Made by a program: the position numbers and the translations under genes. Positions 13,797 through 18,844 of a DNA stretch of 23,008 nt are shown piece by piece. The first letter of the stretch is position 1; each line of letters begins with the position of its first letter. Below the pieces are notes generated by a model. That model was given only the letters and a program-made list of their open reading frames with translations, had not been told where the DNA came from and did no database searches. Source of the stretch: a virus; IMG/VR virus record IMGVR_UViG_3300010354_000695, positions 1-23,008 of that record, one strand, 5' to 3'.

Positions 13797-16631
13797 CTAC
13801 GCTTCCTTCAGATTGCGGCCGACCGTGGCCTCGGCCGTGAGCGGCACGTCCCATCCAGGGATGCGGACGGTCATGCACTCCTCGACCCTGCGCCGGTACG
13901 CTTCCAGTTCGGGCGGCAGCGCCTCGCCCTTCACCGGCTTCCACCCAGCCAAGCCCGGCGGCGCTTCGATCTCCACGGCCACGGAGTCATGGCACTGGTG
14001 GATGAGGCCCGTGCGTCGCCCGAGGTCCCACGGGAACGCGTGAATCAGCGCCTGCTCCGCGAGCCGCATGCAGCTCGCCTCGGCCGCGAGGATGGGGAAG
14101 TTCACGACCTCCTGCTTCTTGCCGTCGCTGAGCAGGCCCGAGCGCCGTCCCATGACCGGCTCTTCCATGTGGCCTTGGTGCCGGTAGATGGACTGCATGG
14201 CGTCCCACGCCGTCAGCCACTCGGGCTCGGTCTTCAGCCACGTCTCGTGGAAGTGGCGGACCTCTTTGGTCGTCATGCCGAGGTACGGCAGCTCTCCGCT
14301 GTCGGACTCCGTCGACGTGAGCACCTGCCAGATGGTCGCAGGATCGGCCGCATACGCAGCCGCGTACCGGAACGTCTTCGAGATGTCGCGCATAGCTTTC
14401 GCCATGCCGGAGCCGGGCTTGCGCTGGATGCTGAACCCGTCGGGTCCCCATCCGTCTGCGTTCTTGAACTTATCACCGAACAGCGCCAGCGCCAAGGCGT
14501 TGTGCGGATCTTTTCCTTCGACAAAGCCCTCGATCAACGTCGGGATCTTCCAGTAGTTCGCGATGATTCGGAGGTGCGCCTGGTCGAGGTCGGCGCCCAC
14601 GAGGAGGTGTCCCGGCTCGGCCGCGAACAGCGTCTTGAGCTTGCCCTGTCCCTTGCGGCTGCCGATGTTCTGGAGGTTCGGGCCGCTCGACGAGAGCCGC
14701 CCTGGAGCCGTGACGTGCGCGTTCCACGTCGAGCGCACGCGCCCGTCCGGGTGCCAAACGACGCCTTTGTTCGGATCGTAGCTAGTGAGGTTCAGCGGCA
14801 GCAGCACGGTGCCGAGGATCTTGTTCTTCTCCCGGCGGTACAGCCGCAGCTCGCGGATGAACGCCTCCTGCTCCTTCGACAAGCGCCCGCCCGCGAGGTG
14901 GCCGCGGAGCACCTTGTCGCCCGTGCCGGGCATCCCCGACGCCGTGTAGAAGTCGCGTGCCTCCATCTGCGGCGGGATGCCGAGCTTCCACGTCTCGTAG
15001 AGCAGGTCGCGGATCTGGTCCGCGCTGCCGGGCTTCACGCCCACAACCTCGTCGCCGTCGTCGTTGGAGCCCGCGCTCTTGAGGTCGAGCTTCCCGAGGC
15101 CGATGGCGAAGGACAGCTCCGCGAGCTTCTTCTCGCGCTTCGCGACGGACGCGCGCGTCTCCATCTCCATCTTGAAGCGCGCCTCCTGGTCGACGTACAC
15201 GCCGATCTTGTGGAGGTTCACGCACATGTCCTGCGTGGCGTGGTCCAGCTCGTGCAGGTCCCACCGACGCTGCTCCCAGCCCACGGGGCGCAGCGCCTCC
15301 GGCAGGTCGCGGAAGGCGCCCGCCTCCTCAGCGGCATCCAGCAGCGGCACGACGATGCGCGCGTTCACGGTGCTGTCGGTGCAGTTGTAGGCGAGCCGGT
15401 CCCAGTCGTCGACCTTGCCGTGCGCGAGGCTCTCGCCCTTCTCCGTCGTCTCCCAGCGGTCGACGTCGGTGAGCACGGAGCCGACGACCTTCAGCCCCTT
15501 CGGAAGTTCAGGCGCCCTGAACCTTGCTGCGAACAGCGTGTCGATGACCGGCGCTGGCGTGACGCCGAGCCACTGCTCGACCACCTGGCGGTCGTAGCTG
15601 CCCGCGTTGTGGCCTACCTTGACCTTGGTCGGGTCCGTCAGGAAGCGGCGCAGGATGTCGAGGATCCGCGCCTCGTCGTGCGGCTCGTAGTACCGCGTGT
15701 AGCCGTCGCCGCTCAGGATGTTGAGGCCCATGACCCCGGCGCGCAGCCACTCCTGCTGGCCCTCGCGCAGCGCGCGCCTGTCGGCGTTGAGGTCCGGGTG
15801 CGCGATGGCGATGGAGCGCACCTTGCACGTCATCGCCTCGATGCCGTCCGTCTCCAAGTCGTACGCCCAGAACGGCATGTCCTGCGCGAGGAACGCCTCC
15901 AGCTCGTCCGGCGTGGGGTTGAAGGAGCGCGTCGGCTGGGTCCAGCGAAGCTGACCCGAGAACCAGCGCATCGCCTTGCCGAGGTCCGCCTGCATCGTCG
16001 CACGCCATCCCGGGGCCTTCTGGACGAAGCCGGGATGGAACGTGGGGAACACTCGCCGCACCGCGCCCTCGGGCACCGCACCGCCCGCCAGCGGCGTCTC
16101 CATCAACGCGCCCCAGTGCTCGTCCACCCAGACCGGGCCGCCGCGCAGCGCGAAGATGCTCTGCGCCTTCGCCGTCAGGGCGTTCGCCGCCGAGCGTCCC
16201 AGCGCGATGATGTTGTTGTAATTTTCTGCCTCCTTGAGTAGCCGAGGACGGCAGCACGAGATAGGGTCCGGGAGGGCCGGGAGCCCGGTGACAAGACGGC
16301 GACGGTTCTCCTTGTCGAGCGCCTTGGTCATCTTCTCCCACGCGTTCTTGTCCGTGCCTGCGTTGCACGCGACGACGTGGGTGAGGTCGACGTCCGAGCG
16401 CCTACGCCCGATGGCCAGCAGCGCCAGGTTCCACTCCTGCCCGCTGCGCCCGGAGAGCGGCCGCCCGTTGTTGGTGTCCTCGATGTGCGGCGTCTCCGCC
16501 ACCGCGAGCACGGCAGCGCCTGCGTGCACCTCGGGCGGGCACGGCTGCCAGTAGCCGTCGCGGAACGCGCCCTTCGGCCCGAGCGGGCACACATCGCAGC
16601 GCGCCCCATGCTGCCGAGGATCGTACGTCAT
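13797..16631 (-). CDS. Family A DNA polymerase with N-terminal uracil-DNA-glycosylase-like domain (944 aa)
   Basis: The ATG at 16631 overlaps the methyltransferase stop by four bases. Residues 1-225 are a family 4/5-type UDG-like domain: C12xxC15, the AETPHIEDTNNGRPLSGRSG motif (45-64), C89, C126/C127 (Fe-S ligand candidates) and TFHPG (197-201). Residues 253-430 are a DnaQ-like 3'-5' exonuclease: D258/E260, N342...D347, Y415...D419. The polymerase follows: SSSGPNLQNIGSR (647-659), motif A from D681, motif B R748/K752/Y756/Y760, motif C HD (881-882). The catalytic Asp residues (681, 882) are present. Two positions are unusual: His686 replaces the steric-gate Glu of motif A, and Ser883 follows the motif C Asp where Glu is usual. 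It copies phage DNA; the UDG-like part could scan uracil. Confidence 0.9.
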   Translation of the reverse strand: MTYDPRQHGARCDVCPLGPKGAFRDGYWQPCPPEVHAGAAVLAVAETPHIEDTNNGRPLSGRSGQEWNLALLAIGRRRSDVDLTHVVACNAGTDKNAWEKMTKALDKENRRRLVTGLPALPDPISCCRPRLLKEAENYNNIIALGRSAANALTAKAQSIFALRGGPVWVDEHWGALMETPLAGGAVPEGAVRRVFPTFHPGFVQKAPGWRATMQADLGKAMRWFSGQLRWTQPTRSFNPTPDELEAFLAQDMPFWAYDLETDGIEAMTCKVRSIAIAHPDLNADRRALREGQQEWLRAGVMGLNILSGDGYTRYYEPHDEARILDILRRFLTDPTKVKVGHNAGSYDRQVVEQWLGVTPAPVIDTLFAARFRAPELPKGLKVVGSVLTDVDRWETTEKGESLAHGKVDDWDRLAYNCTDSTVNARIVVPLLDAAEEAGAFRDLPEALRPVGWEQRRWDLHELDHATQDMCVNLHKIGVYVDQEARFKMEMETRASVAKREKKLAELSFAIGLGKLDLKSAGSNDDGDEVVGVKPGSADQIRDLLYETWKLGIPPQMEARDFYTASGMPGTGDKVLRGHLAGGRLSKEQEAFIRELRLYRREKNKILGTVLLPLNLTSYDPNKGVVWHPDGRVRSTWNAHVTAPGRLSSSGPNLQNIGSRKGQGKLKTLFAAEPGHLLVGADLDQAHLRIIANYWKIPTLIEGFVEGKDPHNALALALFGDKFKNADGWGPDGFSIQRKPGSGMAKAMRDISKTFRYAAAYAADPATIWQVLTSTESDSGELPYLGMTTKEVRHFHETWLKTEPEWLTAWDAMQSIYRHQGHMEEPVMGRRSGLLSDGKKQEVVNFPILAAEASCMRLAEQALIHAFPWDLGRRTGLIHQCHDSVAVEIEAPPGLAGWKPVKGEALPPELEAYRRRVEECMTVRIPGWDVPLTAEATVGRNLKEA

Positions 16632-17065
16632 CGCGCGACCTTCGGCGGGTAGAAGACGGCGACCGCCGACGGGAACGGTGCGCCCGTCTTCGCGTCCCCG
16701 AAGCGCAGACGTCCGCGGACGAAGACGACCTGAGCGAACGGCAGCACGTAGTCGTGCCACCACGCGGTGTCCGTGCGCGCCGGGAGCAGGCACACGACGG
16801 TCGCGCCTGCGCGGCTCTCGTCGTACGCCTTCTTGACCCACCGGCTGATCTCGCGCCCATAGGGCGGGTTCATCCAGCAGACATCGAGGCTCCAGTCCTG
16901 CGCCAACCCGTTCGTCTCACGGTCGAAGAAGCGGGCGCACTTGGCGTTGTCCGCGTCCGCGCACACGTCGAGCGTGAAGTTGAAGACGCTGTTCCACTCG
17001 TTGAAGAACGCTTGCGGCGTGGCCCATTGGTCAGAGGCCGACGAGAACATGAGGTCGGTGTTCAT
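16628..17065 (-). CDS. dam: Phage N6-adenine DNA methyltransferase, Dam-type (145 aa)
   Basis: This matches the small phage N-6-adenine-methyltransferase family: DQWATPQAFFNEWN at the start, LDVCADADNAKCARFFD (32-48) as the SAM-binding region, and catalytic NPPYG (66-70). Family members are about 140-180 aa, so it is complete. It uses SAM to methylate adenine N6, protecting phage DNA or signalling its replication state. The start at 17065 has only a weak GGGG upstream. It overlaps the polymerase gene by four bases, so the two are made together. Confidence 0.87.
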   Translation of the reverse strand: MNTDLMFSSASDQWATPQAFFNEWNSVFNFTLDVCADADNAKCARFFDRETNGLAQDWSLDVCWMNPPYGREISRWVKKAYDESRAGATVVCLLPARTDTAWWHDYVLPFAQVVFVRGRLRFGDAKTGAPFPSAVAVFYPPKVAR

Positions 17066-17102: not shown

Positions 17103-17615
17103 CTACTTGGGAACAAGCTCCGACCAGTCCAGCTTCACGCCCGGCTCATACTTGTCGAAGTAGTCCACAAGCGCGCCGATGTCGCGGTACTTGAGGTTGG
17201 CCGGACCCGCCACGAAGCGACCGTCTTCCCACCGACCCGCACCGCGGTCCTTGGCGTAGATGGACTCGACGCTGAAGGTCGGGTGGTTGGGCTTCTTGTA
17301 CCGGTCGGTGCCGTGCCCCGCATCCGGCACCTCGTTCGCAGCCCATGCGCCTCGCAGGTCGTAGTCTTCCAAGTCACGGTCGATGCCGCGCTTGATGGCC
17401 CATGCGCGGAACTCAGACTCCTTCTCCGGCGAGAGCTTGGTGTCGTACTCGCCAGCCTTGAACCACGGGCGCTCTGCAATCTGCTCCTGCTCGTTCGTCA
17501 TCGAGCCATAGCGCATCGACGTCTGCGCGGGCGTACCGGCCGTCGAGTTGAACTTGGCCTTCTGCTCCGCCATGCCCTCACGGCGGAGCTTCTCCTTCAT
17601 CTCAGCGTAGTCCAT
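17103..17615 (-). CDS. Conserved phage protein with KKPNHPTFS motif (170 aa)
   Basis: The start at 17615 is one base after the previous stop, with AAGG upstream. The N-terminal 50 residues are charged and helical. The core reads DRDLEDYDLRGAW, AGHGTDRYKKPNHPTFS, then VESIYA and RWEDGRFVAGPANL. The 'YDLRG...GH.tD.yKKPNHPTFS' pattern is one I associate with phage proteins of unknown role, often near virion or lysis genes; I cannot name it precisely. It is co-transcribed with the Dps-like gene. Confidence 0.6.
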   Translation of the reverse strand: MDYAEMKEKLRREGMAEQKAKFNSTAGTPAQTSMRYGSMTNEQEQIAERPWFKAGEYDTKLSPEKESEFRAWAIKRGIDRDLEDYDLRGAWAANEVPDAGHGTDRYKKPNHPTFSVESIYAKDRGAGRWEDGRFVAGPANLKYRDIGALVDYFDKYEPGVKLDWSELVPK

Positions 17616-17616
17616 C

Positions 17617-18057
17617 TCAGACCTTCTGAGCGCCGTACCGCTGCTTGAGCAGGTACACGTCCGTCAGGTGCTTGGTGCCGATGCCGGACACGAAGTTCGA
17701 CAGGGCGCCCGGGTACGGGCACTCCGCGCCGTTCACGACGGCGTCGTTCGCAGACTCCGACAGCTCCATGAGCATCTCGGCGATGACGAGAGGCGAGCCG
17801 CCCATCGTGGCGACCTGGCTGATCTTCTCGCCCGCCGCGGCCCATGCCTTGATGGGGTCCAGCTTGTCGGCGCCGTAGTGCCCCGCGATGACCTCGGCGA
17901 GGCCGTCGATCTCATCCTCGACGCTCTCGTAGAGGCGCTTGAACATGAGGTGGTCGCCGTAGAAGGGAGCGCCCTTCGCCTGCCAGTGCAGGGTGTGGTA
18001 CAGGTGATGCGCGGCGCGCAGACCTGCCCACAGGTCAAGTAGAACGGGCAGAAGCAC
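17617..18057 (-). CDS. Dps/ferritin-like protein with ferroxidase ligands (146 aa)
   Basis: The start is GTG at 18057, behind GGGAGG; the upstream TTG (18069) lies before that RBS. Residues 8-60 fit a Dps four-helix bundle: HTLHWQAKG, FYGDH and DEIDGLAE. H24, H36, D51 and E55 have spacings of 12, 15 and 4, the same as the ferroxidase ligands of E. coli Dps (H51, H63, D78, E82). The second half is compatible with two more helices. Dps proteins oxidise Fe(II) with peroxide, store iron and can bind DNA; here there is no basic tail, so DNA binding is uncertain. The protein is unusual in a phage replication region. A non-catalytic ferritin-like scaffold is the alternative. Confidence 0.75.
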   Translation of the reverse strand: MLLPVLLDLWAGLRAAHHLYHTLHWQAKGAPFYGDHLMFKRLYESVEDEIDGLAEVIAGHYGADKLDPIKAWAAAGEKISQVATMGGSPLVIAEMLMELSESANDAVVNGAECPYPGALSNFVSGIGTKHLTDVYLLKQRYGAQKV

Positions 18058-18077
18058 AGAGCCTCCCAAGCCCGACC

Positions 18078-18086: not shown

Positions 18087-18134
18087 AAAACGAGAACGCC
18101 CCGCCACTAAGGACGGGGCCGAGCTTACGTTCTC
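18086..18134 (-). terminator. Intrinsic terminator of the recombination operon
   Basis: On the minus strand GAGAACG (18134-18128) pairs with CGTTCTC (18098-18092), with an inner CCCCG/CGGGG stem (18118-18114 with 18103-18099) and a 10-base loop. GTTTTT follows (18091-18086). It ends transcription coming leftward from the SSB-like gene, and its T-tract feeds directly into the Dps promoter. Confidence 0.72.
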
Positions 18135-18140
18135 GCCGGG

Positions 18141-18194
18141 CGTTGAGCTGCAAGAAGTGTCTACTCAACGGAGCTGGGTAAACACTTCTTGCAG
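18141..18194. repeat. Overlapping inverted repeats between operons
   Basis: CTGCAAGAAGTGT (18148-18160) and ACACTTCTTGCAG (18182-18194) are a perfect 13-bp inverted repeat with a 21-base loop. CGTTGAG (18141-18147), directly next to its left arm, is repeated inverted as CTCAACG (18164-18170) inside that loop. The two stems interlock, so one RNA can form either but probably not both. The outer 13-bp stem could also be a protein-binding palindrome in DNA. Confidence 0.6.
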
Positions 18195-18223: not shown

Positions 18224-18844
18224 CTAACGAGCGACGTTCACGGCCGGGGGCGGCGGGAGACGGAGGCCGCCAGCGGGCGCCGGAGCCACGGTCTGCACCA
18301 CCTGGCCACCGCCAGCGGACGGGGCCGCCGGGATGACGCTCTGCGCCACCGGGGGAGCGCCGCGCGGGGCGCTGCCGCTGCCGTTCTGCGCGGTGGGCAC
18401 GATGCCGGAAGCCTTCGCCTTCTCGTACTGGTCCTTGGTGAGGAACTTGTTGATGGTGGCGTAGCTGCCCTGCACGCCCTGCTGGCCGGGCACGAACTCG
18501 ACGTACGCCTTGCGGCCGCCGTTGGTGGCGGACACGAACCACGCGTCGCTGATCTCGCCGCCCTCGATGTCCTCGTCGGAGAACCCGAACGACGACAGGG
18601 TGGTCTTCATCGCCGCGAGGCGGCCCTTGAACTGCTTCTCGGGCAGGCCCTCGACCGGCAGGTTGAGCCAGGTGAACATCTTGAACCCGTTCGGGAACTC
18701 GACGTTGAAGCGGCGGCTGTCCGGCTTGTCGCCCTGCTTGTGCTCGACGGAGACGCCGAACACCTCGTAGTAGCCCGCCTCCGGCTGGGAGGAGCCGAGG
18801 GTGGAGACGCCCTTGAAGGCGGAACCGTTGATCATGAAGGACAT
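18224..18844 (-). CDS. Probable single-stranded-DNA-binding or related recombination protein (206 aa)
   Basis: The start at 18844 has GGAG 7 bases upstream. Residues 1-140 form a beta-rich globular domain (YYEVFGVSVEH, FNVEFPNGFKMFTWLNLP, SDAWFVSATNGGRKAYVEFV). The tail (about 150-206) is disordered, rich in Gly, Pro, Ala and Gln, as in SSB-like proteins, though it ends in NVAR rather than an acidic tip. The position directly after the Sak4-like ATPase suggests an SSB role, since phages often pair the two. No OB-fold motif is provable by eye. Confidence 0.45.
   Translation of the reverse strand: MSFMINGSAFKGVSTLGSSQPEAGYYEVFGVSVEHKQGDKPDSRRFNVEFPNGFKMFTWLNLPVEGLPEKQFKGRLAAMKTTLSSFGFSDEDIEGGEISDAWFVSATNGGRKAYVEFVPGQQGVQGSYATINKFLTKDQYEKAKASGIVPTAQNGSGSAPRGAPPVAQSVIPAAPSAGGGQVVQTVAPAPAGGLRLPPPPAVNVAR

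Follow-up and report, generated by a model that had tools for sequence, protein, structure and literature searches.

Dps proteins oxidize Fe(II), mainly with H2O2, and store the iron, and Fenton chemistry is thereby blocked (PMC6675082). Their ferroxidase centre is formed by residues at positions 51, 63, 78, and 82 (His51, His63, Asp78, and Glu82), and an Asp or Glu at position 67 is the fifth ligand of the canonical centre (PMC6675082). Phage-encoded Dps proteins are already known: published examples come from Lactobacillus phages and from Gratiaviridae and other gut phages, and a function in oxidative stress, identical to that considered here, has been proposed for them (PMC8008677, PMC6669764). 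These are other phages with other hosts, and they are likened to the present case by description, except for Lactobacillus phage Semele, which was found among the viral fold matches of our protein. The members of phrog_3636 include the Dps proteins of Salmonella phages SE131 and 7-11, of Escherichia phages such as NJ01 and JacquesWildberger_Bas92, and of Cronobacter, Proteus, Aeromonas, and Streptomyces phages. Homologues of SE131 Dps were found in 144 GenBank phage records. In several Escherichia phage records of GenBank, the Dps homologue bears the label "integrase", which seems to be an annotation error.

We analyzed a 23,008-nt stretch of viral DNA (hereafter, the window), positions 1 to 23,008 of the 23-kb record IMGVR_UViG_3300010354_000695. 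The original prediction, a Dps-like, ferroxidase-type protein encoded in a replication region, was backed by sequence, profile, fold, and synteny. We consider it probable (about 0.7) that the gene encodes a phage Dps-family mini-ferritin belonging to the recombination/replication block of a tailed phage, with a putative iron- and peroxide-detoxifying activity. It is an ordinary though well-supported new example, which adds a replication-linked case to the phage-borne Dps proteins.

The dps-like gene and its surroundings

The dps-like gene (17617–18057, minus strand) encodes 146 amino acid residues and ends with a TGA stop codon. Its start codon at 18057 is GTG, and there are relatives that use ATG at the identical place. 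A Shine-Dalgarno sequence, GGGAGG, lies 4 nt before the GTG (18062–18067, minus strand) and is kept in the relatives L002, L003, L004, and L006. This conserved element and the ATG-starting relatives indicate that the GTG start is correct. Comparison of the open reading frame with those of nine relatives gave dN values of 0.01–0.29 and dS values of 0.06–0.82, with a ratio of about 0.1–0.4. The gene is real and retained, being under purifying selection and occupying a conserved position in a recombination/replication block.

Among the clade contigs with enough flanking sequence, the genes were arranged in the order SNF2-type helicase, PD-(D/E)XK nuclease, Sak4-like/AAA_24 protein, 206-aa protein, and dps, followed by a Dam methyltransferase and/or a UDG-exonuclease-DNA polymerase A. 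In the window, the 206-aa neighbour, which had no family match and adjoins dps in relatives too, is located upstream (18224–18844, minus strand). Downstream, and likewise on the minus strand, are a gene of 170 aa that starts 1 nt past the dps stop codon (17103–17615), a Dam-type DNA adenine methyltransferase (16628–17065; PF05869, 112 bits), and a DNA polymerase A with domain matches to UDG and 3'-5' exonuclease (13797–16772). The UDG domain of the polymerase is N-terminal (PF03167, 34.6 bits; cut-off 24.3). The 170-aa protein had neither a counterpart in close relatives nor a family match, and its gene is perhaps a recent insertion or replacement. The contigs of two relatives carry a terminase large subunit (phrog_2), which indicates that these are tailed phages. 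The Sak4-like/AAA_24 neighbour had no match in GenBank phages and the polymerase had distant matches only; these comparisons therefore pointed to no closely related cultured phage and to no host.

This arrangement bears on the idea, put forward earlier, of a virion-associated iron protein, which would be packaged, delivered with the DNA, and protective early in infection. The domain does occur within large open frames in some relatives, and proteins named prohead protease in BFVD contain Dps-like domains. In L049, an 890-aa frame (L049:913-3582) combines an InPase domain with a Dps-like domain at the C-terminus and matches head and DarB-like PHROGs, a fusion read from the open frame only. For phages with such larger frames, a virion-delivered version of Dps is possible. 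The gene in the window, however, is a short stand-alone gene lying in the replication block, as it does throughout the clade, away from recognized structural genes. No link to the virion was found for it, and a virion role, rejected because no recognized structural neighbour occurs in the clade, is highly improbable for this gene.

The intergenic region upstream of dps contains a terminator-like hairpin with an 8-bp stem (18098–18119, minus strand), extendable to about 18092–18135. In L003, the sequence of the stem is changed and its pairing is retained. Folding of the complete intergenic RNA is much more favourable than that of shuffled sequences (z=-5.3). The terminator ahead of dps is genuine and conserved, which bears out the earlier claim of a terminator at this place. 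The companion claim, that dps has its own promoter, found no support: the promoter scan detected no sigma-70-like site ahead of dps, leading us to reject a promoter of this type, and a lone TATGAT (18083–18078) is shared only with L002 and L004, the nearest relatives. Transcription of dps may depend on read-through or on a phage-type promoter. The spacer that separates dps from the 206-aa gene also contains a 20-nt inverted repeat with a 7-nt loop (18148–18194); L002 and L004 retain it, L006 has a degenerate form, and L003 lacks it.

Sequence similarity and predicted fold

Two scans of IMG/VR yielded 14 and 106 relatives, and 61 members were aligned. The 146-aa protein matched phrog_3636 with an E-value of about 1e-9, and all 61 aligned members matched this family too. 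Searched as a single sequence, it scored below the cut-offs of Pfam Ferritin (20.5 bits; cut-off 24.5) and the NCBIfam Dps equivalogs (18.9 bits; cut-off 114), and its matches to Dps chains in the PDB started at 2e-4. The 61-member profile matched Dps crystal structures at 1.2e-12 over positions 10–145 of 154, with Dps4 of Nostoc punctiforme (NpDps4; 5hjh and 5i4j), which has a His-type ferroxidase centre, as the best match. As judged from these comparisons, the evidence is moderate for the single sequence and strong at the family level. The phrog_3636 match, the profile match, and the residues invariant in 61 of 61 members (see below) indicate that the similarity to Dps is far beyond chance.

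SE131 Dps, about 28% identical to the 146-aa protein, shares with it the FYGDH core and the ferroxidase ligands, and the phrog_3636 members are similar to it in length; the SE131 dps gene adjoins thyX. The window clade differs from the phrog_3636 phage Dps proteins in having HxxxxYLLKQR in helix D and a shorter N-terminus.

The AlphaFold2 monomer model built with the family alignment (pLDDT 95, pTM 0.90) contains five helices, at residues 2–26, 32–61, 68–84, 89–109, and 116–141, which follow the Dps order A, B, BC, C, and D. They form a ferritin-like four-helix bundle with the extra BC helix. The original prediction had named a fold lacking a four-helix bundle as evidence against a Dps-like protein; the bundle is present in the model. 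The PDB fold matches listed were Dps proteins, with a probability of 1.00 and TM-scores by query of mostly 0.7–0.78; the Foldseek E-values against the PDB were weak (best, 4.8e-3). The bacterial Dps proteins of Listeria innocua (1qgh), Staphylococcus aureus (2d5k), and E. coli (1dps) share the four-helix bundle with the BC helix, the ligands at positions 51, 63, 78, and 82, and the Trp after the first His. The closest predicted fold was that of uncultured Caudovirales proteins annotated as Dps ferritin-like (UniProt A0A6J5RS28 and others; 28% identity), the best viral match superposing with a TM-score of 0.86 and an rmsd of 1.9.

Since helix A starts at residue 2, nothing precedes it, and the lysine-rich N-terminal tail of E. 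coli-type DNA-binding Dps was not found. The protein is net acidic, with 11 Lys and Arg residues against 17 Asp and Glu residues. These features weigh against the possibility that the protein coats or condenses the DNA of the phage (or of the host) in the manner of E. coli Dps, with ferroxidase activity being secondary. The location of dps among replication genes and the name "DNA binding protein" borne by phrog_3636 would fit such a role, but the PHROG name is an annotation only. We rejected a DNA-coating role because of the absent basic tail, and regard DNA condensation as very unlikely.

Removal of iron and peroxide is the more probable mode of action, given the missing lysine-rich tail and the acidic character of the protein. 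The phage protein would dimerize and probably assemble into a 12-subunit shell, bind Fe(II) at sites in the dimer interface, and oxidize it with hydrogen peroxide as the main oxidant. The infected cell would thereby contain less free iron and undergo less Fenton chemistry while the phage DNA is copied. Infection by phage YerA41 induces host dps and catalase (PMC7354516), which fits oxidative stress during infection, and shielding of replicating DNA from such stress is plausible. Whether phage Dps protects infection from iron and peroxide can be tested directly with the homologues of cultured E. coli phages.

Ferroxidase ligands and the fifth position

In the 146-aa protein, H24, H36, D51, and E55 are spaced by 12, 15, and 4 residues and lie in the contexts HWQAKG and DEIDGLAE, which confirms the earlier reading of this spacing and of the HWxxKG and DExDxLAE contexts. 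They correspond, with identical spacing, to His51, His63, Asp78, and Glu82 of Dps. Their codons, all on the minus strand, are at 17986–17988 (His24, corresponding to E. coli Dps His51 and followed by Trp25), 17950–17952 (His36), 17905–17907 (Asp51), and 17893–17895 (Glu55). These four residues, together with W25, Y43, L136, and L137, are invariant in all 61 aligned virus proteins.

The fifth ligand, Asp/Glu67 of site B, is absent: by alignment, Lys40 (codon 17938–17940, minus strand) takes its place, and the protein therefore falls outside the subclass of Dps with a canonical centre. The column is unconserved among the 61 members (E in 22, Q in 17, S in 7, and K in 5). NpDps4 likewise has no acid at position 67, yet it oxidizes iron and is still a Dps (PMC6675082). 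Its His78 and His164 correspond to Asp51 and Leu136 of the phage protein. Pore positions 145, 148, 149, and 152 of NpDps4 correspond to residues 117, 120, 121, and 124 of the phage protein, which are Gly, Ser, Asn, and Ser; this mapping, which covers part of the ferritin-like pore, was taken from the profile-Dps4 alignment alone. The phage protein thus differs from bacterial Dps in having Lys at position 67 and neutral predicted pore positions. These two features suggest that iron site B may be atypical, and catalysis and iron entry may depart from those of canonical Dps.

Carried further, the same features would point to a modified metal site in which site B is lost and the protein acts as a slow or non-mineralizing binder that, for example, sequesters Fe, Zn, or Mn. 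Such a reading would draw on the lack of conservation at position 67 in the family, on the Leu136 that stands where His-type Dps have the compensating His164, and on the neutral pore. The invariance of the four main ligands and the Trp in 61 diverse members, however, argues for conserved chemistry, and NpDps4 oxidizes iron in spite of the same missing acid. We regard a loss of ferroxidase function of this kind as quite unlikely.

E94 and H130 were considered as an additional ferritin-type intra-subunit site, since both were invariant in the 14-member alignment. This candidate was dropped after the 61-member alignment, in which H130 was kept in 53 of 61 proteins and the helix-C Glu was divided between two columns. 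The helix-C Glu also appears in the Dps4 alignment, which counts against an extra site.

Distribution of the lineage

Close relatives of the 146-aa protein in GenBank phages were limited to one record (LR745208.1). A scan of an 84,980-species genome collection gave one relative, L096, which lies in an archaeal (Altiarchaeales) MAG on a contig of 3 kb; since two exact peptide patterns were used, the scan is evidence for viral enrichment and does not demonstrate that cells lack such proteins. Within these collections, the window's own subgroup is strongly enriched in viruses. L096 has a C-terminal extension like those of the phage members. Its contig may be viral, and a cellular origin of the lineage was rejected, L096 being the sole relative in the genome scan.

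In the virus lineage described by the 61 aligned members, four ferroxidase ligands are invariant and the fifth varies. A bolder proposal would see in these proteins a large, nearly virus-confined Dps-like lineage marked by a YGDH signature, which kept site A, lost the acid of site B, has a neutral pore in the clade, and was thus remodelled by phages to handle metal or peroxide in a different way, being delivered in some phages within large virion proteins. We consider this proposal unlikely.

A literature search on DUF5856, a Pfam family of unknown function, returned nothing. Of the 61 members, 43 matched this family (best E-value, 3.3e-8), which suggests that DUF5856 is Dps-like too.
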